Below are positions 44,243 to 63,270 of a stretch of DNA of 64,000 nt, piece after piece. The DNA is from Alphaproteobacteria bacterium (GTDB taxonomy: Bacteria; Pseudomonadota; Alphaproteobacteria; UBA9219). Location of the stretch: NCBI GenBank assembly GCA_028866275.1, contig JAGWIK010000005.1, forward strand, positions 1 to 64,000, written 5' to 3'. Made by a program: the position numbers and the translations under genes. The notes under the pieces were generated by a model. It made no database searches, was not told the origin of the DNA, and saw nothing but the letters and a program-made list of their open reading frames with translations. The stretch's first letter is position 1, and every line of letters begins with the position of its first letter.

Positions 44243-46177
44243 ATGGATGTTTTTCCCGTCTCTTCGCAAGCCGCATCCTCATCATGGATCGACGCCGGCA
44301 CCTATGACCGGATGTATGCCGCATCGATCAACGAACCTGAAAAATTCTGGGGCGAACAGGGGCGTTATCTGGACTGGATCAAACCCTATACCAGGGTCAA
44401 AAGCGGCGATTTTACCGGCGACGTCCAGGTCAAATGGTTCGAAGACGGCACGTTGAACGTCGCGGCCAATTGTCTGGACCGCCATCTGGCCGAGCGCGGC
44501 GATAAAACCGCTATCATATGGGAACCCGACGAAGCGACGGACGCGCCGCTGCATATCACCTATGCCGAATTGCACCGTAAAGTCGGGATATTCGCCAATG
44601 TCCTGAAACGCCACGGCGTCGTCAAAGGCGACCGCGTCGTCATTTACCTGCCGATGATTCCCGAAGCCGCCTATGCCATGCTGGCCTGCGCGCGGATAGG
44701 GGCCGTCCATTCCGTGGTGTTTGCCGGTTTTTCGCCGCACAGCCTGCGCGACCGCATCATCGATTGCGGCGCGCGGGTCGTCATCACCGCCGACGAAGCG
44801 CGGCGCGGCGGCAAGAAAACGCCATTAAAAGCCAATATGGACGAGGCCATATCGTCCTGCCCCGACGTGCGTAAATGCATCACCGTGCGTCACACGGGGG
44901 GCGTTGTGTCGTGGCAGGCCGGGCGCGACGTCTGGCTGCACGACGAGGCAGAGAAAGTTTCCAGCCTCTGTCCGGCGCAAGAAATGAACGCCGAAGACCC
45001 CTTGTTTATTTTGTACACATCGGGGTCCACCGGCACGCCCAAGGGCGTCGTGCATACCACCGGCGGATACCTGCTTTACGCCGCGCTGACCCATAAATGG
45101 GTGTTCGATTATCATGACGAAGACATTTACTGGTGCGCCGCCGATATCGGCTGGGTCACGGGCCACAGCTACATCATCTATGGGCCGCTGGCCAACGGCG
45201 CCACGACCCTGATGTATGAAGGCGTGCCCAACCACCCCGACCCGTCGCGTTTCTGGCGCATCATCGACAAGCATCAAGTCACGTTATTCTACACCGCGCC
45301 TACCGCCATTCGCGCGCTGATGCGCGAGGGCGAGGACTGGGTGCGCAAAACCGGCCGCGGTTCCTTGCGCCTGCTGGCTTCCGTCGGCGAACCCATCAAT
45401 CCCGAAGCGTGGCTGTGGTATCATCGTGAAGTCGGCGGCAACCGCTGCCCCGTTATCGACACCTGGTGGCAGACCGAAACCGGCGGCCATATGATCGCGC
45501 CCCTGCCCGGCGCTACCGCCCTGAAACCCGGATCGGCGACACGGCCCTTTTTCGGCGTCAAACCCGTTATCGTCGATACCGACGGCCATATATTGGATGG
45601 CGCCTGCGAGGGCATTTTATGCATCGACGGCCCGTGGCCCGGCATGATGCGCACGCTGTACAACAATCACGACCGTTTCGTGAAAGGCTATTTCAGCACC
45701 TATAAGGGCATGTATTTCACCGGCGACGGATGCCGCCGCGACGAAGACGGTTATTACTGGATCACGGGCCGCGTCGACGATGTCATTAACGTCGCGGGCC
45801 ATCGCTTATCCACGGCGGAAATCGAAAGCACCTGCGTGACCCATCCGCTGGTCGCCGAAGCCGCCGTCGTCGGATGTCATCACGACATCAAGGGTCAGGG
45901 CATTTATGTTTTCGTCACGCTGAAGTCAGGGGTCGACGGCAGCGACATGTTGCGCCGTGAATTAATCCATCTGGTCCGGCAAACCATCAGCCCGATCGCC
46001 ACGCCCGATTACATCCAATGGGCGCCGGGTCTGCCGAAAACGCGATCGGGCAAGATCATGCGCCGCATCTTGCGCAAAATCGCAACGGGCGAAGCCGATA
46101 ATCTGGGCGACATCTCAACCCTGGCGGATCCGTCGGTCGTCGACAGTCTGATCAAAGGCTGCCTGATTGGGAAATAG
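44243..46177 (+). CDS. acsA: Acetyl-CoA synthetase
   Basis: This enzyme activates acetate with ATP and CoA to acetyl-CoA. The 644-residue protein matches the family length (about 650). Motifs are [19 protein letters not shown], the AMP-binding P-loop [23 protein letters not shown], and near the C-terminus [12 protein letters not shown], whose Lys is the usual acetylation site. The ATG at 44243 gives the normal N-terminus. The end overlaps the converging ppsR by 26 bases. Confidence 0.96.
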
Positions 46178-46988
46178 CTTCTTTTCTTTGCGCCAGAAGC
46201 GTCATGATCTCCGCCGCCGTTTCTTCAATCGACCGGCGCGATACGTCGATCACGGGACAGCCGAGGCGGGCAAAGAACCGCCGCGCTTCTTGCAATTCCT
46301 CGCGCACTTTTTCCGGATCGACATAGGATGTTTCCCGGTTTTCGCTTAACAGATGCAAGCGATTGCGGCGAATGGCGACAAGACTGTCGGCGTCTTTGGT
46401 CAGGCCGACGATCAACGGTTTTTTCAATTGCTTCAATTCGTCCGGCATCAGATGGCCGGGGACGAAAGGAATATTGGCGGCGCGAATGCCGCGTCCGGCC
46501 AGATAAACGCATGTCGGGGTTTTCGACGTGCGCGAGACGCCCAGAATCACCACATCGGCGTCTTGCAGCCGGTCGATGCCGTGGCCGTCATCCTGCGCCA
46601 GAGCGAAATCCATCGCATCGATACGGGCGAAATAGCCTTCGTCCAGAATATGCTGGCGCCCCGGCATATGGCTTGGATTCTTTCCGAACAGGGCCGCCAT
46701 GCCCGCCAGCACGGGCCGCAAGACGGATACGCAGGGAATGTCATTGTCGCGGCAGAAGCTTTCCAGCTGCGCCCGCAATTCCTCATCCACGAATGTGTAA
46801 AGCACAAGACCGCGGTTTTTTTGTATGCCGTCGATCACGGTTTGAAGCAGCCGCGGCGACCGTATCATGTTCCAGACATGTTCGCGGCATTCGACATCGC
46901 TGAATTGCGCCAGACAGGCGCGCGACATCGCCGCAATGGTTTCGCCGGTCGAATCCGACACCAGATGAAGATGAAAATCGACGGTCAT
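46152..46988 (-). CDS. ppsR: PEP synthase / pyruvate-phosphate dikinase regulatory protein (DUF299)
   Basis: This bifunctional kinase/pyrophosphorylase controls phosphoenolpyruvate synthase or pyruvate phosphate dikinase. The 278-residue protein starts with [20 protein letters not shown]. It has the ATP-binding loop [21 protein letters not shown] (in part) and the closing [12 protein letters not shown]. It is divergent from hemE, with the origin-like spacer between, the arrangement known at the replication origins of Caulobacter and Rickettsia (RP001 is this family, as I recall). Confidence 0.93.
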
Positions 46989-47188
46989 GTGCTGGGTGTT
47001 ATTTCTTCAGGAACTTTTAATCGAAAAGCGGGGATAGTGGGGATAAGTCAATCTTTATGCGTGGCGTCTTTTTTTGGTACCCGTTGCCGCTTTCTTATCC
47101 CACAACAGAAACAAGCGGGAGAAAATTTTCATCCTGTTCGTGAAAAACGGGGATAAAACGGCTTCTCTTTTTTTCCTTATTTTCCCCG

Positions 47189-47197
47189 TTATTCACA
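47189..47197 (+). promoter_or_regulatory. DnaA box TTATTCACA
   Basis: The sequence fits the DnaA consensus TTWTNCACA exactly. It lies 18 bases before the first CtrA site within the candidate origin. Confidence 0.6.
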
Positions 47198-47215
47198 GAA
47201 AGGGTGGAACAATTA

Positions 47216-47230
47216 TTAAAATTGCCTTAA
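47216..47230. promoter_or_regulatory. CtrA binding site, TTAA-N7-TTAA
   Basis: TTAA-AATTGCC-TTAA is an exact match to the CtrA consensus, with the required seven-base spacer. CtrA represses origin firing in Caulobacter and also controls cell-cycle genes. Confidence 0.7.
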
Positions 47231-47373
47231 TAGATATTTACGAACAGGGTTGTCCGTTAACCGTTTATTATCAATTTAAATCATCGACAGCGAAATTCGT
47301 GGATGAAATTTGTACAATCGCTGCCTATATTTAATCCCCATTACCCCCTTGGCCAACCTACTACCTCTAACTC

Positions 47374-47388
47374 TTAATATATAATTAA
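47374..47388. promoter_or_regulatory. CtrA binding site, TTAA-N7-TTAA, next to hemE
   Basis: TTAA-TATATAA-TTAA is a second exact match, ending ten bases before the hemE start and before its ribosome site (TAAGGA). Such placement would block hemE transcription as well as acting on the origin. Confidence 0.68.
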
Positions 47389-47398
47389 GAAGTAAGGA

Positions 47399-48436
47399 AT
47401 GCGCGTGGACAAAACCCGTAAACCCCTTCTCGACGTGCTTCGCGGCGAGGTTCCCGAACGACTTCCCATTTGGCTGATGCGGCAAGCGGGCCGCTATCTT
47501 CCTGAATATCGGGATTTAAGGGCTAAATCTAAAAATTTCCTTAACATGTGTTTGACGCCGGCGCTTGCCACCGAAATCACGATGCAACCCATCCGCCGGT
47601 TTGGCATGGATGGCGCCATTCTATTCGCCGACATTCTTCTGATTCCGATGGCCTTGGGCCTGTCTTTGGATTTCCGCGAAGGCGAAGGCCCGGTCTTGCA
47701 GCGTGTCGCCAGCCGCGACGATCTTATGGGCCTGACTTATAACCCGGACAAAGTATTGCCGGTTTTCGAAACTGTGCGTCGCGTTAAAAACACGATGCCG
47801 GAAAAAACGGCGCTTATCGGATTCTGCGGCGCGCCCTGGACCGTCGCTTGTTATATGATCGACGGCAACAGCAAAAACGATTTTACCGCCGCCAAAGAAT
47901 GGGTGCGCGAAAAACCGCAGGATCTTGACGCGCTGATCGCCATACTGATCGACGCCAGTGAAAAATACCTGTCCGCGCAAATCGAAGCCGGGGCCGAAGC
48001 GGTGCAAATTTTCGACAGCTGGGCTGGATTGATTTCCGGTGACGATTTTACCCGCTTCATCATCGGCCCCACACGGGAACTTGTCAGCCGTATCAAGAAA
48101 AACTATCCCGACATTCCGATCATCGGCTTTCCCCGTGAAGCCGGCGATGATTACGAACCCTATATCCGCCAAACCGGCGTCGACGCCCTGAGCATCGATA
48201 CCAAGGTCGATATTCAATGGGCGAAACGGCAATTACAGCCCGTCAAACCATTGCAAGGCAATCTCGATCCCGATCTTCTGGTGCGCGGCGGCGAGGATAT
48301 GAAAAATGCGGCTCGCCACATCATATCCACGCTGGGCCCGCGCCATATCTTCAATCTGGGCCACGGCGTCGTGCCGCAAACCCCGCCGGAGCATGTCGCC
48401 GAACTGGTTTCCATCATCAGGAATTTTTCCGCATGA
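47399..48436 (+). CDS. hemE: Uroporphyrinogen decarboxylase
   Basis: HemE converts uroporphyrinogen III to coproporphyrinogen III in heme synthesis. The 345-residue protein has the signature RLPIWLMRQAGRYLPEYR near residue 22 and FCGAPWTVACYMIDG, plus GNLDPDLLVRGG. The length is typical. hemH starts in the same ATGA as its stop, then hemJ and rho follow, an arrangement seen in many alphaproteobacteria. Confidence 0.97.
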   Translation: MRVDKTRKPLLDVLRGEVPERLPIWLMRQAGRYLPEYRDLRAKSKNFLNMCLTPALATEITMQPIRRFGMDGAILFADILLIPMALGLSLDFREGEGPVLQRVASRDDLMGLTYNPDKVLPVFETVRRVKNTMPEKTALIGFCGAPWTVACYMIDGNSKNDFTAAKEWVREKPQDLDALIAILIDASEKYLSAQIEAGAEAVQIFDSWAGLISGDDFTRFIIGPTRELVSRIKKNYPDIPIIGFPREAGDDYEPYIRQTGVDALSIDTKVDIQWAKRQLQPVKPLQGNLDPDLLVRGGEDMKNAARHIISTLGPRHIFNLGHGVVPQTPPEHVAELVSIIRNFSA

Positions 48437-49425
48437 CAAAAACAGCCGTTATTTTGTTCAATCTCGGCGGGCCGGACGCGCAAGAGTCCGTCCGCCCGTT
48501 TTTATTCAACCTGTTCAACGATGAAGCCATTATCCGCGTGCCGCAACCGTTGCGCTGGTTTATCGCCACGATGATCTCATCACGACGCGCCCCCATCGCC
48601 CGCGCTATTTACAAACAAATGGGCGGCGGATCGCCGATCATGCCCAACACGCAGGCGCAGGCAGATGCGCTGGAAAACGCGCTTAATGAAAAATCATCGA
48701 CCCGCTATAAATGCTTTATCGCCATGCGGTACTGGCACCCGTTCGCCGGCGAAGCCGCGCGGGCGGTCAAGGATTATGGTCCGGATAACATCATCCTGTT
48801 ACCGCTTTACCCGCAATTTTCGACGACGACGACGCAATCTTCCTTCAAGGATTGGCATCGGGCCGCCGCCAAGGCCGGCATCGCCGCGCCGACCCAAAGC
48901 ATCTGTTGCTATCCGCAACTGGACGGGTTCGTTTCCGCGCTGGCCGCCGCCATTCGCCCTGTTTACGCCGAGGCGCAAAAATACGGCGCGCCGCGCATCC
49001 TTTTTTCCGCGCATGGCTTGCCGGAAAAAATTGTCAAGGCGGGCGACCCTTATGCCGATCAATGCGCCGCGACGGCCGACGCGTTAAGGCGCGCCCTTGC
49101 CGTCGACAAACGCGACAGCGTTTTATGTTTTCAAAGCCGCGTCGGCCCGTTGAAATGGATCGGGCCGTCAACCGACGACGAAGTGCGCCGCGCGGGACGC
49201 GACAAGGTGCCGCTGGTCGTCGTGCCCATCGCCTTTGTGTCGGATCATTCGGAAACCTTGGTCGAAATCAATATCGAATACCGCCATCTGGCCGCGCAAG
49301 GCGGCGCGCCCTTTTTCGGTTTCGTGCCTGCGGTCGGTGCCGCGCCCGCATTCATCGACGGGCTGGCGCAGCTGGTGCGTCAGGGCTGCAAAAATTGCGA
49401 TTGCGCTTTCGCCGCCAAAACGTAA
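48433..49425 (+). CDS. hemH: Ferrochelatase
   Basis: HemH inserts iron into protoporphyrin IX. The 330-residue protein from the ATG overlapping the hemE stop (ATGA) starts TKTAVILFNLGGPDAQESV. It carries GGGSPIMPNTQAQADALE, the metal-ligand segment LFSAHGLPEKI, and FQSRVGPLKWIGPSTDDEV. Its C-terminus QGCKNCDCAF has a few cysteines but no clear iron-sulfur motif. The frame from 48217 runs back into hemE. Confidence 0.96.
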   Translation: MTKTAVILFNLGGPDAQESVRPFLFNLFNDEAIIRVPQPLRWFIATMISSRRAPIARAIYKQMGGGSPIMPNTQAQADALENALNEKSSTRYKCFIAMRYWHPFAGEAARAVKDYGPDNIILLPLYPQFSTTTTQSSFKDWHRAAAKAGIAAPTQSICCYPQLDGFVSALAAAIRPVYAEAQKYGAPRILFSAHGLPEKIVKAGDPYADQCAATADALRRALAVDKRDSVLCFQSRVGPLKWIGPSTDDEVRRAGRDKVPLVVVPIAFVSDHSETLVEINIEYRHLAAQGGAPFFGFVPAVGAAPAFIDGLAQLVRQGCKNCDCAFAAKT

Positions 49426-49434
49426 AGTACGGCC

Positions 49435-49896
49435 ATGCCTTACATCTGGATCAAAGCCTTGCATGTTATTGCCGTCATCAGCTGGATGGCGGGCATGCTG
49501 TATCTGCCGCGTTTGTTCGTCTATCACACGCAGGCCAAACCCGGATCCGACCTGTCGGAAACATTGAAAATCATGGAACGGCGCCTGCTGCGCTATATCA
49601 TGAACCCGGCGATGATCGTCAGCTTTGCCACCGGCTTTGCCATGCTGGAAACGAACGACGCGTTAAAGGCCCAGCTGTTCATGCATATCAAAATGGTTTC
49701 CGTGCTGGCGATGGCCGGCGTGCACGGCATGCTGGCGCGCTATCGCCGCGCCTTCGCCGAAGACCGCAACATTCATTCGGGCAAATTTTACCGCATCCTG
49801 AACGAAGCCCCGACGGTTCTGATGATCGTCATCGTTATCATGATCATCGTCAAACCGTGGCAAGGCCATTATTTATGGTTAATACCTGGTTTATAA
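49435..49896 (+). CDS. hemJ: Protoporphyrinogen oxidase HemJ
   Basis: HemJ oxidises protoporphyrinogen IX to protoporphyrin IX in most alphaproteobacteria. The 153-residue membrane protein has four helices and the family motif IKALHVIAVISWMAGMLYLPRLFVYH (given in two parts), with its conserved His at about residue 10. The remaining conserved part ends MIIVKPWQGHY. It is ten bases after hemH, completing hemE-hemH-hemJ. Confidence 0.95.
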   Translation: MPYIWIKALHVIAVISWMAGMLYLPRLFVYHTQAKPGSDLSETLKIMERRLLRYIMNPAMIVSFATGFAMLETNDALKAQLFMHIKMVSVLAMAGVHGMLARYRRAFAEDRNIHSGKFYRILNEAPTVLMIVIVIMIIVKPWQGHYLWLIPGL

Positions 49897-49915
49897 GGTT
49901 TTTTCCAATAAAAGC

Positions 49916-49944
49916 TTGACCCGCGCGCGTCCTTTTGGTATAAA
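49916..49944 (+). promoter_or_regulatory. Consensus-like sigma70 promoter of rho
   Basis: TTGACC (49916-49921) and TATAAA (49939-49944) lie exactly 17 bases apart, one of the best promoter matches in the window. Transcription would start near 49951, leaving about 130 bases of leader before rho. Rho leaders are commonly used for autoregulation. Confidence 0.75.
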
Positions 49945-50083
49945 GTTCAAAATCCGGCGTGATTATTTTATCCGCTAAGCGATTTTGCAAGCGTCGGAAC
50001 CCTCCCCCCACTTGGCGAGAACGACTCCGTAAAAGCGGACTTTCGTACGCCCTTTATCTCAATACAAACGAGTGAACGATACA

Positions 50084-51460
50084 ATGACATCGACTAATTT
50101 ACGCGAATTAAAGGCCAAAACGCCGGCCGAACTCCTCGTCATGGCCGAAAAGCTCGGCATCGAAGGCGCCAGCGCGATGCGCAAGCAGGATATGCTGTTC
50201 GCCATTTTGAAAATCACCGGCGAACAGCCGAACCAGACCATTACCGGCGACGGCGTTCTGGAAGTGTTGCCGGACGGGTTCGGCTTCCTGCGTTCGCCCG
50301 AAGCGAACTATCTGCCCGGCCCCGACGATATTTACGTTTCGCCGTCACAGGTGCGCAAATTCAACCTGCGCACGGGCGACACGGTCGAAGGCGAAATCCG
50401 GTCGCCCAAGGAAGGCGAGCGTTATTTTGCCCTGCTTAAAGTCAACAAAATCAATTTCGACGAGCCGGAAAAGGCCCGCCACCGCGTCGGTTTCGACAAT
50501 CTGACGGCGCTGTATCCGACCAAGCATCTGAAACTGGAACTGCCCGATCCGACCAAGAAAGATTACACCGCGCGCATCATCGACCTGGTCGCCCCGATGG
50601 GCAAGGGCCAGCGCGGCCTTATCGTCGCGCCGCCGCGCACCGGCAAAACCGTGATGATGCAAAGCATCGCGCACGCCATCACCACCAATCATCCCGAAGT
50701 TTACCTGATCGTCCTGCTGATCGACGAACGCCCCGAAGAAGTCACGGACATGGCGCGGTCGGTCAAGGGCGAGGTTATCAGTTCGACCTTCGACGAACCG
50801 GCGACGCGCCATGTGCAGGTCGCCGAAATGGTGATCGAAAAGGCCAAGCGTCTGGTCGAACATAAACGCGACGTCGTTATTTTGCTGGACAGCATCACCC
50901 GTCTGGCCCGTGCCTATAACACCGTCGTGCCGTCGTCGGGCAAGGTCTTGACCGGCGGTGTCGACGCCAACGCGTTGCAGCGTCCGAAGCGTTTCTTCGG
51001 CGCGGCCCGCAATATCGAGGAAGGCGGGTCGTTGACCATCATCGCCACCGCCCTGATCGATACCGGCAGCCGCATGGACGAAGTCATCTTCGAAGAATTC
51101 AAGGGCACGGGTAATTCCGAACTGATCCTTGACCGCAAATTGTCCGACCGCCGCACCTTCCCTGCCATCGACATCACCAAGTCGGGCACCCGCAAGGAAG
51201 AATTGCTGGTCGACAAGGCGACCATGTCGAAAATGTGGGTTCTGCGCCGCGTGTTGCAACCGATGGGCACGACCGACGCGATGGAATTCCTGCTCGACAA
51301 GCTTAAATACGCCAAAACCAATGCCGATTTCTTTGAAAGCATGGGTTCGGGCGGCGGCGGTAACGAAAGTGGCGGCGGTTCGTCCGGCCCGACGGTTCAG
51401 CGCGCCACCATTGCGCGGCGCAGCAGTTCGTCCGGATCGACCAATTCCGACAAGGAATAG
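50084..51460 (+). CDS. rho: Transcription termination factor Rho
   Basis: This hexameric RNA helicase ends transcription. The 458-residue protein from the ATG at 50084 has the N-terminal cold-shock RNA-binding domain ([19 protein letters not shown]), the Walker A APPRTGKT, Walker [13 protein letters not shown] and the Q/R-loop region. The C-terminal 30 residues are an additional Gly/Ser-rich tail ([16 protein letters not shown]), longer than in E. coli. It follows hemJ as a separate transcription unit with its own promoter. Confidence 0.97.
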
Positions 51461-52940: not shown

Positions 52941-53978
52941 CTAAAATTCGCGCTCCACCGTGAAATTCACGATATCGAGCAACGCCTGTTTGACGGGATG
53001 TTCGCCGAACAGGCCCAACGCGTCGCGCGCGATGCAGGCGTAATGCTGAGCCCGTTCCAGCGCGTCGCGCAACGTGTTGTGACGGCGCAGCAAATCCTGG
53101 GCATGGGCCAGATCGCCGTCGCGTTGTTCGCTGTCGTCCAGCGTGCGTTTCCAGAAAGCGCGCTCCGCCTCCGACCCGCGATGAATGGCCAGAATGACGG
53201 GCAGCGTCACCTTGCCTTCGCGAAAGTCGTCGCCGACGGTTTTGCCCAGATTTTCCTGATCGGCGGTATAGTCCAGAATATCGTCCACGATCTGGAACGC
53301 GATGCCGAGATTAAGGCCGAAGGTGCGCAAGGCTTCTTCCTCCGACGAAGGGCGACCGGCAACCACCGCGCCGATGCGGCATGCCGCGGCAAACAATTCG
53401 GCGGTCTTGGCGCGCACGACTTCCAGATAGGCTTGTTCGCTGGTGGTGCTGTCGCCCTGCGTCGTTAATTGCAGCACTTCGCCTTCGGCAATGACGGCCG
53501 ACGCATGCGACAGAATGCGCAACACGTCGATGGATCCGTCTTCGACCATCATTTCAAACGCGCGGCTGAACAGAAAATCGCCGACCAGAACGCTGGCCTC
53601 GTTGCCGAACAGGGCGTTGGCCGACGGGCTGCCGCGGCGCATCGTGCTGTCATCCACCACATCGTCATGCAACAACGTCGCGGTATGGATGAATTCGACG
53701 CAGGAGGCGAGCTTGATATGCCGTTGCCCCTGATAGCCGCACAGCCGCGCCGCCGCCAGCGTCAATACGGGGCGCATGCGTTTGCCGCCCGCCGCGATCA
53801 AATGCCCGGCCAATTGGGGGATCATCGCCACGCGGCTTTCCATGCGTTGGATGATAAGCTGGTTGACGGCGGCCATATCGTCGGCGACCAGCGCGGCCAG
53901 CGTATCGAGCGCGGCGGTTTTGCGGCGGCGCGGCGGTTGTTCAAGGGGAATGATGGTGGCCATGACGGGGCTGGGCAT
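52941..53978 (-). CDS. ispB: Long-chain polyprenyl diphosphate synthase (octaprenyl/decaprenyl)
   Basis: This enzyme builds the side chain of ubiquinone. The 345-residue prenyltransferase has both Asp-rich metal motifs, LLHDDVVDDSTMRRG and IVDDILDYTAD, and GNEASVLVGDFLFSRAF. The size and sequence are typical of alphaproteobacterial octaprenyl/decaprenyl synthases. The chain length is not readable by eye. A start five codons later (53963) is possible. The end lies next to the converging queH. Confidence 0.92.
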   Translation of the reverse strand: MPSPVMATIIPLEQPPRRRKTAALDTLAALVADDMAAVNQLIIQRMESRVAMIPQLAGHLIAAGGKRMRPVLTLAAARLCGYQGQRHIKLASCVEFIHTATLLHDDVVDDSTMRRGSPSANALFGNEASVLVGDFLFSRAFEMMVEDGSIDVLRILSHASAVIAEGEVLQLTTQGDSTTSEQAYLEVVRAKTAELFAAACRIGAVVAGRPSSEEEALRTFGLNLGIAFQIVDDILDYTADQENLGKTVGDDFREGKVTLPVILAIHRGSEAERAFWKRTLDDSEQRDGDLAHAQDLLRRHNTLRDALERAQHYACIARDALGLFGEHPVKQALLDIVNFTVEREF

Positions 53979-53998
53979 GAGGGGTTGGGATAGGCCTG

Positions 53999-54028
53999 TT
54001 TGTTAACACAGGGTTTGTTAACACAGGG
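53999..54028. repeat. Perfect tandem repeat, two 15-bp units, upstream of ispB
   Basis: TTTGTTAACACAGGG occurs twice in a row (53999-54013 and 54014-54028). Together with the preceding CCTG it forms an imperfect palindrome around GTTAAC. Placed 20 bases before the start of ispB, it could be an operator or just slipped-strand duplication. Confidence 0.65.
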
Positions 54029-54071
54029 ACGGATGGAAGAAAATCACTCTTTGCCATCGTTATCGACGGGG

Positions 54072-54752
54072 TCAGGACAGCGCAGGATAGCCTACCCTTT
54101 CGCGCCAGCAATTGATCCATCTTTTCGTGCGATCGGGCAAAAAGAACAAAGCCGGAGCATGCAGCCACGGCTGTTCGGGCTCGTCCTCACAAAACGGCTT
54201 GGCGATTTTTAACAAATCTGCGGCCAGTTCGTAATATGCGTTTGTCGCCGTATGGGCGAAAACCGGCGCATCGTCATTGTCGTCCGCCATATAGGCGGCA
54301 CGCGATCTGATCCGTTTAACCTGGGCCTTGAGCGCCCCAAGGCCCCGGGTATTTCTGGTCGTGATAGGATAGAGCAGCGCCCCGGCGACCAGATCGTCGC
54401 ATTCGAGCCGGCGTATGACATCCAGCATGTTGTGAGCATTATGCGTCGCGACCGAAAGCCGTTGCGCCGTATCGACGCGCCGGGCCGATATGCCGTGCGT
54501 GGGCGCTCTGCGCGTTCTTGTTTTTTCCGTTAAATTCTCAATATCGGCCAGAAGAACCTGCGCGGCGCGGCGGAACGCGATATAGGCTTCCTCGGGCGTA
54601 GGGAGGAAGTCGATATCTTCCGGTATTAATTCCGTTACTGTCGCGTCGCATTCCTCATCGCAGCCTTCATAGTATCTGGCCAGCAGATGATCGATAGCTT
54701 CGTCGGCGTCGATGGACGCGCTGAGTTTTCGCGTGGATAATCTTTGGGCCAT
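54072..54752 (-). CDS. Hypothetical protein
   Basis: This 226-residue soluble protein is acidic at the start (DEAIDHLLARYYEGCDEECDATVTELIPE), mostly helical, and lacks signal and membrane segments. Segments such as PTPEEAYIAFRRAAQVLLADIENL and TATNAYYELAADLLKIAKPF suggest a helical bundle. I recognise no family. It stands alone between ispB and DUF1192, and upstream are only about 85 bases before the next gene. Confidence 0.6.
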   Translation of the reverse strand: MAQRLSTRKLSASIDADEAIDHLLARYYEGCDEECDATVTELIPEDIDFLPTPEEAYIAFRRAAQVLLADIENLTEKTRTRRAPTHGISARRVDTAQRLSVATHNAHNMLDVIRRLECDDLVAGALLYPITTRNTRGLGALKAQVKRIRSRAAYMADDNDDAPVFAHTATNAYYELAADLLKIAKPFCEDEPEQPWLHAPALFFLPDRTKRWINCWRERVGYPALS

Positions 54753-54837
54753 AAAAATAAGTTCTGGAAAAAATTTAATGCGGCATTTTATCTATAAATC
54801 CCCGTTCAAACAAGGTTCTTCATATCCGCGTCACGCT

Positions 54838-55029
54838 TTAACCTTTACCAAACAACCCCTCAATCCCCGCTTTGTGGGCCTGTTTCTTGGCAATCGCCTC
54901 GTCGGCGCGGACAATTTCGGCCTCCAGCGCGGCGATATACTCTTCCAGTTCATGCACCGACATATTTTGCAGGTCGCGCGGTTTCGCCTTGCCGGGCCGC
55001 GGTTCAAATTCGTCCGGGTTAATCATCAT
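54838..55029 (-). CDS. DUF1192 family protein
   Basis: This 63-residue protein carries the compact DUF1192 pattern: a Pro/Arg-rich start, then MSVHELEEYIAALEAEIVRADEAIAKKQAHKAG (split here), a short coiled coil. The family is found in alphaproteobacteria and its function is unknown. It overlaps the end of the hemY-like gene by 11 bases, so it is probably the last gene of the hemC-hemD-Mic60-hemY unit. Confidence 0.8.
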   Translation of the reverse strand: MMINPDEFEPRPGKAKPRDLQNMSVHELEEYIAALEAEIVRADEAIAKKQAHKAGIEGLFGKG

Positions 55030-56344
55030 GACCCCCCGTCAACAAAGCCGCGCTTTTGCCCTGCCCCGGTTGCCGCCATTCGACGCTGTCGAACGCGCCG
55101 CAATGCACGCAAACCGGTTGCCATATTTTATGCGCGCCGCCGCACGACCGGCACGACCAGACAGAATCCGGCGCGGCGTCAGCCGATTTAATCATCCACG
55201 CGGCGGCGGCGCGATCATCGCCGCGTTCGCGCCGTTCCAGCCGCGCCAACAATTGGTAAACGCCGCGCGTCGCCGTGCCGTCATTGACGCAGGCCGTCAA
55301 ATGCCGCCGCGCTTCGCCCCATATATCGGCATCAAGCGCCGCCAGCGCCAGAGCCATACGGCTTTCGAGGCTGTTTTCGCGACTCCGGCATAAATGCTCG
55401 GTCTGTTTATAGGCATCGAGCCTGTCCTGCGCCAGACCGCGCAGAATATCGGCCAGTTGCGGATGCGGCATTTCTTTCCATGCTCGTTCAATGGCGCGCC
55501 GCGCCGCGCGGGCATTATCGGTGGCGGCCAGCGTTTCGGCCAGATTGATTTGCGCGGGCAGCCAATGCGGAGCCTGTTGCGCAGCCTGTTCGGCGGCGCG
55601 CAGCGCCGCGTCTTTGTTTCCCGTCGCCAAGGCTTCACGTGATACCGCGATGCGCAAGGCGGCGCGCGTTTGCCGTCCGGCGGCGGGGTCCAGCAGGCGC
55701 GCCGCCGAAGCCTGCGTCAAAGCCTGCTCCGCCTCGCCCCATTGGCCGCGCCGCGCCGCGCTTTCCATCCGTATCAGGTTAAGCCACGGCGTTGCCGGTT
55801 TGGCGCGGCGGCATTCGTCGATCAGCCGGTCGACCTCGTCCCATTTGCCGGCTTTTTTGGCGTCGGCGATCAGCCCGCGATAGCCCAGCACGGCGGCGTC
55901 CGCATCGCTGGCCAGCGCGCGGAACAGGCTGCGCGCGCTTTGCGCATCTCCCGCCAATTGCGCGGCCTGCGCCTGCAGCCACAAAGCCAGCGCGGGATGC
56001 GCGGCGTTCTTGCGCGCCGCGACGGCCAGTTTTCCCGCCTCTGTCGCGTTGCCCGACGCCACGGCGACAAGCCCGCGCGCCAGCGCGTCATGCCCTTGCT
56101 GCAATTTGCCGATGCGCCGGCGCAGTTTCCAATGCACGGGCCCGTGGCGCAGAAAATGCCACAGCCGCCACAACAGATGCAGCGCGTAGGCGAAAATCAA
56201 AACGCACAGCCCCAAAAACGCGGCCGAGGTTTCGATAACCGTGCCATGCCAGACAATGCGCGCCGTGCCCGGTTTGTCGGCGAGCCACAAGGCAAGGGCC
56301 GCCAGCACGGCGATTTGAATAACGAAAACGAACAAACGTATCAT
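55019..56344 (-). CDS. hemY: HemY-domain membrane protein with TPR-like repeats
   Basis: This 441-residue protein from the ATG at 56344 has two N-terminal membrane helices (about 1-20 and 40-60). A helical HemY_N domain follows (HFLRHGPVHWKLRRRIGKLQQGHDALARGL, in part), then TPR-like repeats. The C-terminal end has a small zinc-ribbon-like motif (WSCRSCGGAHKIW and CVHCGAFD). HemY proteins lie in heme clusters but have no proven enzyme activity. The ATG overlaps the end of the Mic60-like gene by four bases. Confidence 0.85.
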   Translation of the reverse strand: MIRLFVFVIQIAVLAALALWLADKPGTARIVWHGTVIETSAAFLGLCVLIFAYALHLLWRLWHFLRHGPVHWKLRRRIGKLQQGHDALARGLVAVASGNATEAGKLAVAARKNAAHPALALWLQAQAAQLAGDAQSARSLFRALASDADAAVLGYRGLIADAKKAGKWDEVDRLIDECRRAKPATPWLNLIRMESAARRGQWGEAEQALTQASAARLLDPAAGRQTRAALRIAVSREALATGNKDAALRAAEQAAQQAPHWLPAQINLAETLAATDNARAARRAIERAWKEMPHPQLADILRGLAQDRLDAYKQTEHLCRSRENSLESRMALALAALDADIWGEARRHLTACVNDGTATRGVYQLLARLERRERGDDRAAAAWMIKSADAAPDSVWSCRSCGGAHKIWQPVCVHCGAFDSVEWRQPGQGKSAALLTGGHDD

Positions 56345-57279
56345 GGCGAAGCTCCGTCGTTGGAAGACGCGCCGAAATCCGTTGCCAGCCTGTTCAATGC
56401 GGCATCGACGGCAACGCGTTCCTGCAATTGCGCATCCCATGAAGCCAGATCTTTTTGCGCGTCATCGGGCAATCGGGTAAAGGCGCTTTGCGCCGCGGCT
56501 GCATCGCCTCGCGCCAAAGCGTCTTCCACCGCGTCGAACGCGGCGTTATGCACTGGCCGCACCGAGATCAGGCGCGACAAAGCATCCAGCGCGCGGGCTT
56601 TCCATTCTTCCCGCCATGACGACGCTTGATCGGCGGCGTCGGCAACCGGCGCGTTTGCGATCGCCGGTTCATGCGCCATCAAATCGGCGCGCAATTGCGC
56701 GGCCGTCGCCACGCCTGCGGTATGTGAAAACAAAATGGCGGTTTGCGTATCGATATCGGGCGCGTTGGCGGCGCTGCCCGCTTTGACCGCGTCATCGAAC
56801 GCGGCCAGCCGGGTGGCGAAAGGCGCGCCTGCGTCGACGGTCTGGCGCAAATCCCAAAAAGCCAGCGCGGCGGCGACCCATTGCCGGGTTTGTCGCTGCC
56901 TGTTGCGGCTTTCGCCCTGCAACTGCGCCACTTGCGCCTGCAGCGTCTTGACCGTATCGGCCAAGGCGTTCGCGGCCGTGCCGTCATTGCCGGCCGCCGG
57001 TTGTACGGGGGCGGCCGTGCGCGCTTCGAGCATGCGCACGCGGTCTTCCAGCGCGGCGATGGCGCGGGCATTTTGCACGCTTTGCGTATTCGGCATGACG
57101 GTCGCCGCGGGCGCGATAAAATGCTGCGTCACCCACGGACAGCGCAACGCGGCAACACCGCCCGCGCCCGCTATCAGAACCACAACCAATCCCATGCCCA
57201 GCATTTTGCGGGAACGGCTTTTTTTCCGGGGTGCGGCGGGGACAAGGTCGGTTGAGGCCGGGGACGAGGTCATGTGCAT
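56341..57279 (-). CDS. Mic60/mitofilin-like inner-membrane protein (COG4223)
   Basis: This 312-residue protein has a basic N-terminus, one membrane helix (about 28-46), then a coiled coil (about 68-130, AIAALEDRVRMLEARTAAP and ADTVKTLQAQVAQLQGESRN) and a C-terminal helical domain. Alphaproteobacterial homologues of mitochondrial Mic60, which shape intracytoplasmic membranes, have this layout and lie beside hemY/hemD, as here. The C-terminal mitofilin signature cannot be verified by eye, so the call rests on architecture and neighbours. Confidence 0.7.
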   Translation of the reverse strand: MHMTSSPASTDLVPAAPRKKSRSRKMLGMGLVVVLIAGAGGVAALRCPWVTQHFIAPAATVMPNTQSVQNARAIAALEDRVRMLEARTAAPVQPAAGNDGTAANALADTVKTLQAQVAQLQGESRNRQRQTRQWVAAALAFWDLRQTVDAGAPFATRLAAFDDAVKAGSAANAPDIDTQTAILFSHTAGVATAAQLRADLMAHEPAIANAPVADAADQASSWREEWKARALDALSRLISVRPVHNAAFDAVEDALARGDAAAAQSAFTRLPDDAQKDLASWDAQLQERVAVDAALNRLATDFGASSNDGASP

Positions 57280-57282
57280 TCC

Positions 57283-58026
57283 CTATAGATGGTCATGAAT
57301 CAGACAGTCGAGCATCGCTTCTTCGTTAGGCGCCGCGGCGACTTTTATTTGCCGCCACGGCAGAATATCCAGAATATCCGCGACCGCCTGACTTAAACCC
57401 GTGGCGGTGACGTCGCGGCAGGCCTCGGTCAGGTTTTCCCGCATCAATATCTCCGTCAGCAACGTCGCGCTGCGCGGCGAGAAAACAGGGACAGACGCGA
57501 TGCCGCCGGATGACAAAGCCTCGCGCGTTGCGGGCGCAAAGCCGGTTGCCGCCACCGCAGCGTAAACGCGCCACGCCGTCACGTCAAATCCGGCCTCGAT
57601 CAGGGTGTTTTCCATCGCTTCCCGCGCAACAGCGCCCGCAATATGCAGCAAAGACCTGGACGGCGAGGGCGGATGCGCGGCGATAACCTGCCGCGCCAAC
57701 GCCGCTCCATCCTTATCGCCGCATATGACATGCGAAAAGCCCGCGCGCCGCGCGGCATGGCCTGTTACCGCGCCCACGCAAAAACAGGGCAGGCCGGTTA
57801 ATCCGGCCAGCTCGCCCGCACGGGCGGCGAGGCTGTCGGGCGCGTGCGCCGAGGTTATCAGCACGGCGGCGAAGGATCCGGCGGGACGGGGCGTGTCAAG
57901 CCTATCGATGCGCAACAACGGGTCGATAAGGCAATCGAACCCATGTTGCTGCAGCAAGGCGGCCCAGCGTTCGCTGGCGGTGCGGGGCCGCGTCAGAAGA
58001 ATTTTTTTTGCGCCGCCGCGTTGCAT
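57283..58026 (-). CDS. hemD: Uroporphyrinogen-III synthase
   Basis: HemD cyclises hydroxymethylbilane to uroporphyrinogen III. The family is weakly conserved. The 247-residue size, the ILLTRPRTASERWAALLQQHGF beginning, AVLITSAHAPDSL, PVFSPRSATLLTEIL and the position directly after hemC support it. Its ATG shares its first base with the hemC stop (TGATG). A GTG one codon upstream is an alternative. Confidence 0.85.
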   Translation of the reverse strand: MQRGGAKKILLTRPRTASERWAALLQQHGFDCLIDPLLRIDRLDTPRPAGSFAAVLITSAHAPDSLAARAGELAGLTGLPCFCVGAVTGHAARRAGFSHVICGDKDGAALARQVIAAHPPSPSRSLLHIAGAVAREAMENTLIEAGFDVTAWRVYAAVAATGFAPATREALSSGGIASVPVFSPRSATLLTEILMRENLTEACRDVTATGLSQAVADILDILPWRQIKVAAAPNEEAMLDCLIHDHL

Positions 58027-58967
58027 CACGCCGCAAAAAGATCGGCGGGCGATTGCGCGCGCAATTCATGACCCAGCGCATAGCCGATAGCATCGGCATC
58101 GCGCGCCGCGCCGCGCGATGTCAGGCGTTTCATATCGGTGCCGTCGGCGCGGGCGACCAGCGCGTCGATATGGAGAACGCCTTCGGCATCGAGCGTGGCA
58201 TGCGCGCCGGCCGGCGTGTGGCACGACCCGTCGATGGCGCGCATCACCGCGCGTTCGGCGATAACGCAGGCCGATGTTTCGGCGTGGTTAAGCGGCGACA
58301 GCAAGGCGCGCATGGTATTGTCTTCGGTACGGATTTCGACGCCCAGCGCGCCCTGCCCCGCGGCAGGCACGATTTGCGTTGCCGAAAGAATTGACGTGGC
58401 GCGTTTTTCCATACCCAGGCGGGCCAGCCCGGCAAGGGCCAGCAATGTGGCGTCGGCGACGCCGTCGTCGATTTTTTGCAATCGCGTTTCGACATTTCCG
58501 CGCAACGGCACGACGCGCAGATCGGGTCGCAGCGCCAGAATTTGCGCCTGCCGCCGCAGGCTCGACGTGCCGACAACGCCGCCCGGCGGCATATCGGCGA
58601 GGGTCGAGGCTGTGCGGCCGATGAAAACGTCGCGGGGATCGTCGCGGGCGATGATCGCGCCGATGGCCAGGTTGGACGGCAACGCGCTGGCGACGTCTTT
58701 CATCGAATGCACCGCCATGTCGATATAACCCGACAGCAGCGCGTCTTCGATTTCCTTGGTGAACAGGCCCTTGTTGCCGCCCATATCGATAAAGCGGCGG
58801 TCTTTATGTTCGGGACGCCAATCGCCCGTGGTGCGAATGGGCACGATGTCGATCACGGTATCGTCGGCCAGAGAAGGGTGCGCAGCGAAAAGACGGCGGC
58901 GGATTTCTTCGGCCTGAATAAGGGCCAGCGGGCTGCCGCGCGTTCCCAAACGGATGGTTTTCTTCAT
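58026..58967 (-). CDS. hemC: Hydroxymethylbilane synthase (porphobilinogen deaminase)
   Basis: HemC polymerises four porphobilinogen units. At 313 residues it has the usual length. Motifs: IRLGTRGSPLALIQAEEIR at the start, VHSMKDVASALPSNLAIGA, GTSSLRRQAQIL and GNVETRLQKIDDG. The cofactor-attachment region is GSCHTPAGAHATL, whose Cys binds the dipyrromethane. It is first in the hemC-hemD-Mic60-hemY-DUF1192 unit. The promoter should lie in 58968-59264. Confidence 0.96.
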   Translation of the reverse strand: MKKTIRLGTRGSPLALIQAEEIRRRLFAAHPSLADDTVIDIVPIRTTGDWRPEHKDRRFIDMGGNKGLFTKEIEDALLSGYIDMAVHSMKDVASALPSNLAIGAIIARDDPRDVFIGRTASTLADMPPGGVVGTSSLRRQAQILALRPDLRVVPLRGNVETRLQKIDDGVADATLLALAGLARLGMEKRATSILSATQIVPAAGQGALGVEIRTEDNTMRALLSPLNHAETSACVIAERAVMRAIDGSCHTPAGAHATLDAEGVLHIDALVARADGTDMKRLTSRGAARDADAIGYALGHELRAQSPADLFAA

Positions 58968-59264
58968 TGCTTCCTGCGTTCTTTCTTTCCATCTTCCGGA
59001 CTGGTGGAAAGCACTTCGCCCCTTTTGCGTTTTATATCCCGTCAGAAAGTTCGGAAAAATCCGATCGATTGCGTAGATGCAGCCGGAAATTTTTCCGGAT
59101 TTTCAAGTCGATGAAGAACAGGATGGGCCGGAGACGCTGTATTAACAAATTTTTCACCATAGAATCAATTAATTAGTTTCTCGTTTTGCGGCTATTCTTG
59201 TCTATGTGGCAAGACATGGGCATGACAGGAGATAAAGCGAAACATGAGAACGGCAGGAAAAGGC
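58968..59264. other. Intergenic region upstream of hemC
   Basis: This stretch of nearly 300 bases has no supported gene. It contains a hairpin CCGGAAA/TTTCCGG (59091-59106) and an AT-rich part (59140-59180). The minus strand should carry the hemC promoter and the end of the small gene at 59265-59576. A plus-strand frame starting at 59244 is the shadow of that gene. Confidence 0.45.
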
Positions 59265-59576
59265 TTAAACGCTGATATTCACGGTCGTACCGCGTTCCTC
59301 GCCGTCGTTGGCGTCGCCATCGTCCTTTTCGCCGTTTTTGTCCTGTGCCGTATGTTTGTCTGGCGTTTGGTCTTTGTGGTCGCGGTTTTGGTAGGATTTT
59401 TCGCTTTTGGGGGCGGGATCGACGGCGTTTTGCACCAAAGGCGCCACGGCCTGCGGGGTAGCGACGGCCTTGGCCGCGATGTCCTGCGGCAAGGGAGCCG
59501 TCAAAATCGGCGGTGGTATCGACGGAATCTGCATGGGGCCAAAATTTCCGAAGCTAAGCGCGGCGAATATTATCAC
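59265..59576 (-). CDS. Small disordered hypothetical protein
   Basis: About 103 residues from a GTG at 59576, or 89 from the ATG at 59534. The N-terminal part is Pro/Ala-rich (MQIPSIPPPILTAPLPQDIAA) and the rest highly charged and probably disordered (KSYQNRDHKDQTPDKHTAQD then KNGEKDDGDANDGEERG). The codon positions look coding on this strand, while the overlapping plus-strand frame gives an implausible Arg-rich protein. I recognise no family. Confidence 0.5.
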   Translation of the reverse strand: MIIFAALSFGNFGPMQIPSIPPPILTAPLPQDIAAKAVATPQAVAPLVQNAVDPAPKSEKSYQNRDHKDQTPDKHTAQDKNGEKDDGDANDGEERGTTVNISV

Positions 59577-59719
59577 GCTACCAGAATAAATAAACCTTTA
59601 ACATTTCAGGGGGTATGCTGGGCTGTCCATAACCCCCAAGGCGAGGAAAGCCTTCGCATGCGCCTTTTTTTGAATAATTTATATATATCATCGACTTACA
59701 GTTTCCATAGGGGGACGGC

Positions 59720-60862
59720 ATGATGAGCATGGTCAAAGAAAAGCTGCCGACAATGTACGATCTGGCGCGCGACCGGTCGGAACCTGCGCGCATCGAACTG
59801 GCCGGCATGCTGGCCGATATTTTCCTGAACCCCGACGCGGTGTTGTCGCTGCGCGAAGAAGAAATGGCCAATGAACTGATCGATCAATTACTATTGGCCG
59901 GATCGGCGGCGGTGCGGTCGCAGCTGGTGCATAAATTTGCCGACATGTCGCGCATGCCGGCGCGCATTGCCAAGGCGTTGGCGCGCGACAGCATCGATGT
60001 CGCCGGCCCCGTTTTGCTGGCCAGCACATGTCTGGCCGATGATGATCTTATTCAGGTTGTCGATATGAAGGGCGGCGATCACGCGCTGGCGGTGGCCTCC
60101 CGCGCCGAAATCAGCGCAGCGGTGGCGGACGCGCTGGTCACGACCGGCGATATGCGCGTGATGATCGCGGTCGCGGAAAATCTGGGCGCGCATCTGTCCT
60201 ATCGCGCCGTTGATGTTTTGGCCGACGCCGCGCGTTACGCCGCGCCGTTGCGCGCGCCGGTGATGCGCCGCCCCGAATTGACCCCCGATGCGGCGATGAA
60301 GCTTTATTGGTGGGTCGAACAGGATCTGCGCCGCTATGCCCTGCAGCGCTTCGGCTTCAACGCGGGACAGATCGACCGCGCTTTGGCCGACACGGTCGCC
60401 GCGTTTCTGGGCGACCACGCGCATGAAAAAGACAATGACGCGGTGATGGCGCAGGTCGCCGACTGGATGGAAGCGCATGACGCGTTGACGCCGCAGGTTC
60501 TGCCGCAGGTTCTGCGCATGGGGCATTTCCGTTTGTTCAACATGTTGCTGTCGCGGATGTCGGGCCTGTCCCTGTCCTTGATCGACACCATCATAGCCGA
60601 AGTCGGGGGACGCGGTCTGGCCGCGATCTGCCGCACCATCGGCATCGACAAGCCCGGTTTCGTTTCGTTGTTCCTGTTGGCGCGCGGCGGCAGGCCGGGC
60701 GAGCATATCGTGCATCCGCGCGAATTGGCGCAAGCCCTGGCGGCGTTCGACCGCCTGTCGCCCGCGATTGCCGGCGATCTGTTGCACAGCTGGAAAGCGA
60801 ATCCCGATTATTTCGTCCGCCATATGCAGGAAGCGGCCGCCGAAAGCCGCACGCAGGTTTAA
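59720..60862 (+). CDS. DUF2336 domain protein
   Basis: This 380-residue, all-helical protein has the alphaproteobacterial DUF2336 pattern: DLARDRSEPARIELAGMLADIF at the start, LREEEMANELIDQLL and VLLASTCLADDDLIQVV. Repeats of about 35 residues resemble HEAT-like helices. No signal or membrane segment is present. The role is unknown. It converges on the prepilin peptidase gene with a four-base overlap. The start could be the second Met. Confidence 0.85.
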   Translation: MMSMVKEKLPTMYDLARDRSEPARIELAGMLADIFLNPDAVLSLREEEMANELIDQLLLAGSAAVRSQLVHKFADMSRMPARIAKALARDSIDVAGPVLLASTCLADDDLIQVVDMKGGDHALAVASRAEISAAVADALVTTGDMRVMIAVAENLGAHLSYRAVDVLADAARYAAPLRAPVMRRPELTPDAAMKLYWWVEQDLRRYALQRFGFNAGQIDRALADTVAAFLGDHAHEKDNDAVMAQVADWMEAHDALTPQVLPQVLRMGHFRLFNMLLSRMSGLSLSLIDTIIAEVGGRGLAAICRTIGIDKPGFVSLFLLARGGRPGEHIVHPRELAQALAAFDRLSPAIAGDLLHSWKANPDYFVRHMQEAAAESRTQV

Positions 60863-61392
60863 AAAAACCGCATATCCGCGAAACGCAGCGCGTAAATGCC
60901 GGCCGCAAGACCGGCGCATAAAAACGGCGCGAAAGTGACATGCGCGATGCGCCGCCGCGCGATATGCATGGCGGCGATCCACAAAACCGCCAGACACGCG
61001 CCGATTCCCCACGCCACGATCACAGCCTTCAACCCAAAGCATGCCGCCGCCAGCATCGACCATTTGGCATCGCCCATGCCCAGCGCATCATTTTTGAAAA
61101 ACAGCCGCCACATGAAATTGACCGCCCAGACGGCAAGGCCGGCCTCGATGCCGTGACGCAAATGCATCGCCGCGTCGGGCCATGATTTTTCCATGCCCAG
61201 CAACCCCGTCAGGGCCAGAAGCCCCAGAAAAATCGGCGCTTCCGGAATCGTGGTGGTGCGGATGTCGTGAAGGGCGGTCAGCGCAAGGACAAGAACCACG
61301 ATCGCCGTCGCCCACCACAAGGATGACGGTATCCCGGGCGCGGACTGAACCAGAACATGCCGGACGACGCCTTCATAGGGAAAAACGAGCAT
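60859..61392 (-). CDS. Prepilin peptidase (A24, CpaA/TadV-like)
   Basis: This membrane aspartyl protease cleaves type IV prepilins. The 177-residue protein from the ATG at 61392 has about five helices. Catalytic Asp residues are seen in ALHDIRTTTIPE and in the GMGDAKWSMLAA (GxGD) motif. No methylase zinc domain is present. It starts three bases after the stop of the pilin-like gene, so it probably processes that pilin and perhaps belongs with the type IVb pilus genes at 23.8-31.6 kb. Confidence 0.85.
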   Translation of the reverse strand: MLVFPYEGVVRHVLVQSAPGIPSSLWWATAIVVLVLALTALHDIRTTTIPEAPIFLGLLALTGLLGMEKSWPDAAMHLRHGIEAGLAVWAVNFMWRLFFKNDALGMGDAKWSMLAAACFGLKAVIVAWGIGACLAVLWIAAMHIARRRIAHVTFAPFLCAGLAAGIYALRFADMRFF

Positions 61393-61394
61393 CG

Positions 61395-62027
61395 TTACGG
61401 AACGCAATGGCTGTCGGGAGTCCCGCTGGCAGGCAGCGTGATCCAGACCACGAATTTCTGCGACGTGCTGGACGGGTCGTAAATCACTTCCGACGTTGCG
61501 CTGAAAGCGGTCGAGCTGTTGAATTTCGTCGCGGCGCGCGTCAGCCCGTCGACCACGGTGGGCGTGCTGCCCGATGTCGGCGTGGTCCAGAAGCAACGGC
61601 CGTGGTCGTCGCTGGGCGTCGCGCTCCACGCGTCGATATAGGTCCATTCGTTGAAACCCGATGTCGGCGGCGGCAGCAATTTATCGACCCACATCGGCGT
61701 GCCGCCCATGGGCGTGCAGGTGATGTTGCGCACGATCGTGCCGGTGCTGGTATCCGATGTCGGGTAATAATCGTTGCTGGCGGGCGGATTGACCGATCCC
61801 GTCGACACCGCCATTTTATATTGCAAATTGCATTCGTTGATGGTGTTGCGGATCAAATTGGCTTGGGCCACGACATCATTGGTGATGCGGTCTTCGCTGC
61901 CCGCCGTCTGAAATCCGCCGCCGCCCGAGGCCATCACGGCGGCAAGAACGCCAAGAAGGGCGAGCACAAATAAAATCGGCCCGATGGCGATGCCGGCGTT
62001 GGGAGAGAATTTTTGTTGCATGGCCAT
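61395..62027 (-). CDS. Type IVb-like major pilin (PilS-like)
   Basis: This protein of about 210 residues has a short leader (MAMQQKFSPNAG) that ends in Gly before a hydrophobic stretch IAIGPILFVLALLGVLAAVM, suitable for prepilin peptidase. An extended extracellular domain follows with several cysteines (NECNLQ, RNITCTPMGG, GRCFWTT, SHC), as in PilS-type pilins. The usual Glu at position 5 of the mature chain is not seen. I start it at 62027 because a GGGGA ribosome site precedes it. The peptidase gene follows directly. Confidence 0.65.
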   Translation of the reverse strand: MAMQQKFSPNAGIAIGPILFVLALLGVLAAVMASGGGGFQTAGSEDRITNDVVAQANLIRNTINECNLQYKMAVSTGSVNPPASNDYYPTSDTSTGTIVRNITCTPMGGTPMWVDKLLPPPTSGFNEWTYIDAWSATPSDDHGRCFWTTPTSGSTPTVVDGLTRAATKFNSSTAFSATSEVIYDPSSTSQKFVVWITLPASGTPDSHCVP

Positions 62028-62042
62028 GATGTTCCCCGACAA

Positions 62043-62222
62043 TCAATGGGCGCCGGCGGCGCCTTCCTTAAGCACATAGCGTTTGCCGCAATAGGGGCAA
62101 TCGGCGAATCCGTCCGGCCCCATCGTCAGGAAAACGCGCGGATGGGCGGAGTCCCTGTCGCCGTTGCAGGCGATTTTGGCGGTGTCGACGGTGATGGTTT
62201 CACGGGGAGCGGTGGCGATCAT
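62043..62222 (-). CDS. Zinc-finger protein of the zf-CHCC (NDUFS6-like) family
   Basis: This 59-residue protein runs MIATAPRETITVDTAKIACNG, then DSAHPRVFLTMGPDGFADCPYCGKRYVL (in part), ending EGAAGAH. The Cys-x-His-Cys-x2-Cys arrangement is that of the zf-CHCC family, whose mitochondrial member NDUFS6 belongs to complex I. It lies just upstream of the pilin gene on the same strand, 15 bases away. Confidence 0.8.
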   Translation of the reverse strand: MIATAPRETITVDTAKIACNGDRDSAHPRVFLTMGPDGFADCPYCGKRYVLKEGAAGAH

Positions 62223-62301
62223 GGGGATAAACAGGATGAATATATTGTCGCATATTGTCGCGAGGGCCGGACCGTGCGATTATCGCCGCGAACCAACCGA
62301 C

Positions 62302-63270
62302 ATGCAAGCACCGATGAACGTTTTTTCGCCTGAATCCGCCGGTCTTTCCCCCGCTGTGGAAATTGCCGATCTTACCAAGACCTATCGCGGCGGCAAAGGC
62401 CGCCCGCCCAAGGATGCGTTAAAGGGCATCAGCCTGTCGATCCCGCGCGGCAGTATTTTCGGCCTTCTGGGCCCCAACGGCGCGGGGAAATCGACGCTGA
62501 TCAATATTCTGGCCGGGCTGGTTCTGAAAACATCGGGCACGGCGAAAATCTGCGGTTATGACGTCGACGCCGATCAACGCATGGCGCGGTTGTCGATCGG
62601 GGTCGTGCCGCAGGAACTGAATCTCGACGCGTTTTTCACGCCGCGCGAATTGCTGGAACTGCAGGCGGGGTTGTACGGCGTGCGCCGCCGCGACCGCCGC
62701 ACCGACGAATTGCTGCGCGCCGTCGACCTGACCGACAAGGCCAATTCCTACGCCCGCACATTGTCCGGCGGCATGCGCCGCCGTTTGATGGTGGCCAAGG
62801 CGATGGTGCATGCGCCGCCGGTTCTTGTGCTGGACGAACCGACCGCGGGCGTCGATGTCGAATTGCGCCGGTCGTTATGGGCCTATGTGCGCGCCTTGAA
62901 CAAGGCGGGCGTCACCATTTTGCTGACCACCCATTATCTGGAAGAAGCGCAGGAACTGTGCGACCGCGTCGCCATCATCAATCACGGCCAGATCGTCGCC
63001 AACGACACCACGGCGAATTTGCTGGCGCGGCTCGATAATAAAAAACTCTGCGTCACGCTCGACGCCGATATGCCGGTTCTTCCCGATAATCTGCGCCAGC
63101 AAGGATGGGAACAAACCGGCCCGCGCCAGCTTGCCGTCGCCTATCGACCCAGCGAAGCGGCGGTCGGCAATTTATTGCGCGTGCTGCAAATGAACGGCGC
63201 GGGCATCGTCGATCTCAGCACCGACGAAGCCGATCTGGAGGACATTTTCCTGCAATTGACGCGGAAATAA
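62302..63270 (+). CDS. ABC transporter ATP-binding protein
   Basis: This 322-residue ATPase subunit has the Walker A GLLGPNGAGKST, signature LSGGMRRRLM, Walker B VLVLDEPTAGVDVE and H-loop TTHYLEEAQELCDR. The class is that of exporters such as YadG/YhfS-type or drug ABC systems. A C-terminal domain follows (about 245-320). No permease gene follows, since the next gene is on the other strand. A start at 62314 is possible. Confidence 0.92.
   Translation: MQAPMNVFSPESAGLSPAVEIADLTKTYRGGKGRPPKDALKGISLSIPRGSIFGLLGPNGAGKSTLINILAGLVLKTSGTAKICGYDVDADQRMARLSIGVVPQELNLDAFFTPRELLELQAGLYGVRRRDRRTDELLRAVDLTDKANSYARTLSGGMRRRLMVAKAMVHAPPVLVLDEPTAGVDVELRRSLWAYVRALNKAGVTILLTTHYLEEAQELCDRVAIINHGQIVANDTTANLLARLDNKKLCVTLDADMPVLPDNLRQQGWEQTGPRQLAVAYRPSEAAVGNLLRVLQMNGAGIVDLSTDEADLEDIFLQLTRK

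Follow-up and report, generated by a model that had tools for sequence, protein, structure and literature searches.

The 410-bp gap between ppsR and hemE in this alphaproteobacterial genome (46989–47398) holds no genes, and the question it raises is whether replication of the chromosome begins there. The window, a stretch of 64,000 nucleotides, is part of a 106-kb contig (C9) in a draft genome of 2.19 Mb in 78 contigs, and dnaA lies on a separate contig (C28). The initial annotation had proposed the spacer as a probable origin, describing it as gene-free and AT-rich and its flanking genes as those found at the Caulobacter and Rickettsia origins. Gene calls and composition agree with this description, as the spacer is 61% AT versus ~40% in its surroundings, and the flanking genes were confirmed as ppsR (PF03618) and hemE (PF01208), the same neighbors as at those two origins (PMC1914354). 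The start of hemE is most likely the GTG at 47405 rather than the ATG at 47399, because relatives do not share the ATG, which directly adjoins AAGGA; the spacer would therefore be ~6 bp longer than the gene calls indicate. At 410 bp it already exceeds the 300 bp taken as the lower limit for a spacer of this kind beside hemE and/or a COG1806 gene in alphaproteobacterial origins. No Rfam family scored above threshold when the spacer was searched for a non-coding RNA analogous to CcnA of Caulobacter. Separately, hemE-like proteins (26–66% identity) are encoded on 47 IMG/VR contigs with a viral classification, some of which may be mis-binned host DNA.

Predicted DnaA boxes and CtrA sites

The DnaA boxes of this species are weak. 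A consensus DnaA box had been claimed, and one match to TTATNCACA is present, the only one in the spacer; its sequence, TTATTCACA, is nevertheless one mismatch from TTATCCACA. The weaker DnaA-like sequences mentioned in the initial annotation were borne out by counting: beside the TTATNCACA and TTATCCCCA boxes there are four further boxes at 2 mismatches, a total of 6 at ≤2 mismatches where shuffled sequences yield 1.4 (p = 0.002). No IHF site (WATCAANNNNTTR) was found in the spacer at ≤1 mismatch.

Both exact CtrA sites (TTAA-N7-TTAA) reported previously are present. Exact matches to this pattern number 5 in the 64-kb window (0.28 expected) and 41 in the 2.19-Mb genome, versus 35 for a reversed control pattern; thus a pair within one spacer is unusual, whereas single sites are not. 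Only one other close pair of full CtrA sites occurs in the genome, on contig C74. The site nearest hemE, which had been singled out as placed to couple initiation with transcription, is poorly conserved, being exact only in this species and the congener G007, and falls inside the predicted AT-rich unwinding stretch. The well-conserved CtrA site is instead the one at 47216–47230, which is locked 18 bp from the DnaA box.

Table 1. Features of the putative origin and its flanks (window coordinates).
Feature	Position	Strand	Remarks
ppsR (DUF299/COG1806, Kinase-PPPase), left flank	46152–46988	−	PF03618, 305 bits
Putative chromosomal origin (oriC) spacer	46989–47404	none	From gene calls, site counts and relatives
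DnaA-like box TTATCCCCA	47038–47046	−	GGGGATAA invariant in genus alignment (7 species)
DnaA-like box TTATCCCCG	47148–47156	−	2 mismatches; GGGATAA kept in most of the genus
Best predicted DnaA box TTATTCACA	47189–47197	+	TTATCCACA at the aligned position in G006 and G009
Putative CtrA full site 1 (TTAA-N7-TTAA)	47216–47230	+	Exact; 18 bp after the DnaA box
Weak CtrA-like site TTAA-N7-TTAC	47227–47241	+	Overlaps site 1; 29 bp after the DnaA box
Conserved putative unwinding module (model R1)	47309–47398	+	Boxes, trio-like motif, AT-rich stretch
Weak DnaA box TAATCCCCA	47332–47340	+	TTATCCAC/TTATCCCC in some relatives
Weaker box TTACCCCCT	47342–47350		Follows the TAATCCCCA box
Trio-like CTACTACCTCTA	47358–47369	+	Complement of DnaA-trios (3'-GAT-5'); degenerate in this species
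Predicted AT-rich duplex-unwinding stretch	47361–47400	none	
Inverted repeat TCTTAAT-N5-ATTAAGA	47372–47390	none	Inside the unwinding stretch; statistically weak
Second exact TTAA-N7-TTAA	47374–47388	+	Exact in G007 as well; in the other congeners degenerate or missing
hemE (uroporphyrinogen decarboxylase), right flank	47405–48436	+	PF01208, 386 bits; likely GTG start, by comparison
hemH, hemJ (UPF0093), rho	48430–51460	+	Conserved origin-proximal gene order

Conservation of the spacer with and without hemE

Across 13 spacers between ppsR and hemE in the same family we counted 40 DnaA boxes at ≤1 mismatch, where 1.5 would be expected, along with 11 full CtrA sites against an expectation of 0.7; six spacers of the genus hold 8 full CtrA sites (0.34 expected). 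DnaA boxes were also enriched in 41 ppsR/hemE spacers of named alphaproteobacteria (89 versus 3.0 expected), with CtrA sites in only 2 of the 41. As the DnaA-box enrichment is class-wide and CtrA sites are this rare, the origin appears to be class-wide and its CtrA sites lineage-specific. Searching at the DNA level with the whole spacer returned only four congeners, each matching at the hemE-proximal end, and at class level one weak 40-bp match besides. A sequence model of 47309–47398 (R1) had a single match in each of 20 of the 24 family genomes, 10 of those 20 lying outside the training alignment.

As DnaA and CtrA also regulate promoters, the spacer could be only the divergent ppsR/hemE promoter region under the control of both proteins, with the origin elsewhere. 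The unwinding module directly adjoins the hemE ribosome-binding site, and a stricter DnaA-box cluster lies upstream of gcrA, both of which fit a promoter. We nonetheless consider this improbable, since the spacer ranks first for combined DnaA and CtrA sites among all 400-bp windows on three contigs of the genus (104 kb in this species, 260 kb in G002 and 173 kb in G005), is unique per genome, and persists where hemE has been lost. In G001 (contig C120), hemE, hemH and hemJ are absent from the locus and hemE from the whole assembly, yet ppsR is still followed by DnaA boxes, an exact CtrA site and the unwinding module, and then by rho. G003 (contig C6) also lacks hemE; after a local rearrangement its rho gene adjoins an origin-like spacer that holds three near-boxes and two CtrA sites and in which R1 scores below threshold. 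Retention of the element in both species without hemE argues strongly that it is not a hemE promoter. Haem synthesis has probably been lost in G001 and G003.

Two further properties of the spacer, the unwinding module and a fixed distance between DnaA box and CtrA site, were both missed in the initial annotation. In all 7 members of the genus that carry the pair (this species, G007, G005, G006, G009, G002 and G001), exactly 18 bp separate the DnaA box at 47189 from the CtrA site, although the intervening bases differ; the CtrA site is exact in six of these and has one mismatch in G007. The pair is absent from G003 and G004 of the same genus. In a sister genus (g2), a CtrA-like site lies 29 bp from the DnaA box in 5 of 5 cases, exact in four; this full-site slot corresponds to the weak site at 47227–47241 in our species, one 11-bp step beyond the 18-bp position. 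As the species share ancestry, the agreement in spacing is best taken from these alignments as conservation, not independent origin.

The predicted unwinding module beside hemE

Conservation in the spacer is highest over the final 90 bp before hemE. The layout there is weak boxes, a GC-rich bridge, CTAC or CTACTA, and then the AT stretch, which is the spacer's least stable 40-mer; of 103,960 positions on the contig, only 50 have a lower stability. Where this species has TAATCCCCA, relatives have TTATCCCCG or TTATCCACG. Of 18 family members, 17 have a CTAC 15–60 bp upstream of hemE, versus 17 of 452 control ORFs, and CTACTA is the complement of the DnaA-trios, 3'-GAT-5' (PMC8287927). The basal unwinding system (BUS) rule calls for DnaA boxes and ≥3 DnaA-trios within 16 bp (PMC8287927). 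Our species has only two strict trios in a row (CTA CTA, then CCT CTA), 17 bp from the better box and 7 bp from the weaker one, and so falls short of this rule, whereas G009 and others carry 3–4 consecutive trios and satisfy it. The module thus resembles the Bacillus subtilis type of system in its weak tandem boxes, short GC-rich spacer, CTACTA and unstable AT-rich stretch (PMC8287927), and differs from it in the shorter trio run of this species, longer runs being found in relatives.

When the inverted repeat inside the AT stretch was tested across the family, few individual species reached p < 0.05 (this species, 0.055), and the species are not independent. Several family members have a different sequence at the position of 47372–47390 that also forms an inverted repeat, again statistically weak.

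Probable position of the origin and comparison with known systems

Synteny, family-wide enrichment of DnaA boxes and CtrA sites, one conserved site per genome, fixed spacing and survival after hemE loss are all observed by computation, and together they support the initial proposal: the ppsR/hemE spacer is very probably the chromosomal replication origin (oriC). We infer from the arrangement of its sites how DnaA and CtrA would bind, where the duplex would melt and replication start, and in which direction CtrA would act. DnaA would bind the weak, dispersed boxes, best at 47189, load onto the weak boxes at 47332–47350 and oligomerize over the trio-like single-strand motifs at 47358–47369, and the AT stretch at 47361–47400 beside hemE would melt. 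CtrA would sit at 47216–47230, about three helical turns from the best DnaA box, where it would most likely hinder, and less likely help, DnaA assembly. Initiation would thereby be tied to the CtrA cell-cycle circuit.

A minimum of GC skew at the spacer had been expected, and a switch is found near it, not at it. The strand-corrected third-position skew changes sign ~10 kb downstream of hemE in this species (~57–60 kb), 17 kb downstream in G002 (140 kb) and 15–25 kb downstream in G005 (95–105 kb). We therefore read the skew as near-agreement, not proof, with an offset that is consistent within the genus. The true origin could accordingly lie 10–20 kb downstream, near mnmE, gidA, gidB and parAB. 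These genes follow the order mnmE-gidA-gidB-parA-parB (gidA and parB named by Pfam; mnmE, gidB and parA from gene order), with parB at C9:69001–69945 and parA/parB 21–22 kb from the spacer. Such a neighborhood is usual near alphaproteobacterial origins. We regard a downstream origin as slightly less probable still than the promoter explanation, as the stretches in which the skew switches hold no comparable cluster of DnaA and CtrA sites, and in the closed genome of a class-level relative (G041) the skew turns from minus to plus at 3.60–3.62 Mb, a range that includes the spacer (3.605 Mb). Within the genus the skew is weak and changes sign several times, and a recent rearrangement of gene order around the origin may disturb it: a 10-kb block at 52941–63270 (polyprenyl synthetase, hemD, hemC and neighbors) is inverted in G002 and found there on the other side of the spacer. 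Among other relatives, the skew of G029 changes sign near hemE at coarse sampling, and the sampled stretches of G046 and G044 show no clear switch at hemE.

The canonical parS sequence GTTNCACGTGNAAC, sought by motif search as an origin marker, is absent from nearly the whole family; in many class relatives it lies within ~16 kb of hemE. A single GTTTCCCGTGAAAC is present in this genome at C9:67422–67435, near the gidB start beside parAB, and is possibly an altered parS.

Origins linked to dnaA are common in other phyla. Three strict TTATNCACA boxes fall within 134 bp at a single place in the genome, C69:86611–86744, upstream of gcrA (PF07750). An origin beside dnaA (C28) or at this cluster was rejected and has a negligible probability, as only two scattered near-boxes lie upstream of dnaA, and no sign change of the GC skew occurs within tens of kb of the gcrA cluster. 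Because DnaA directly activates gcrA in Caulobacter (PMC3193534), the cluster is likely the same regulatory link.

The spacer compares most closely with the Caulobacter crescentus origin, Cori, which also lies between hemE and a COG1806 gene (PMC4468827, PMC1914354, PMC8959179). Both have weak DnaA boxes beside CtrA sites and an AT-rich stretch, and our genome encodes a CtrA ortholog 51 kb from the spacer on the same contig (C9:98779–99462), 70% identical to that of Caulobacter. CtrA is thought to exclude DnaA at Cori (PMC4468827), and the origin proposed here would work in a like manner. It has multiple full CtrA sites, as a Cori-type origin does, with two exact ones where Cori has five, but is not classed as Cori-type because it has no IHF site at ≤1 mismatch. 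Moreover, we did not find a fixed DnaA-CtrA spacing of 18 bp (29 bp in the sister genus) described for Cori, and the hemE tree, a single-gene tree with weak deep support, sets the order of this species apart from Caulobacterales. The Rickettsia prowazekii origin has the same flanking genes, a similar length (384 bp) and a high AT content (PMC1914354), which at 82% exceeds the 61% of our spacer; our species also differs in its genome of 2.2 Mb and the ~60% G+C of the window.

The proposed origin is of a known kind, and what is new is the conserved spacing and the presence of CtrA sites in an order placed apart from Caulobacterales. A 2015 review noted that CtrA sites had not been seen in alphaproteobacterial origins outside Caulobacter species and possibly Rickettsia (PMC4468827). 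We give even chances to the proposal that this order, which lies outside Caulobacterales, acquired CtrA control of its origin separately, by way of a rigid composite element. In that element, TTAA half-sites would form an array with 11-bp phasing that begins exactly 18 bp from a DnaA box, and the slot for the CtrA dimer would differ between genera by one helical turn (18 versus 29 bp). The congeners without hemE allow origin function to be told apart from transcription of hemE, two things that are difficult to disentangle in Caulobacter. A family in which DnaA box and CtrA site keep a conserved, helically phased distance would extend CtrA control of replication origins to a further lineage and give it a simple geometric rule.
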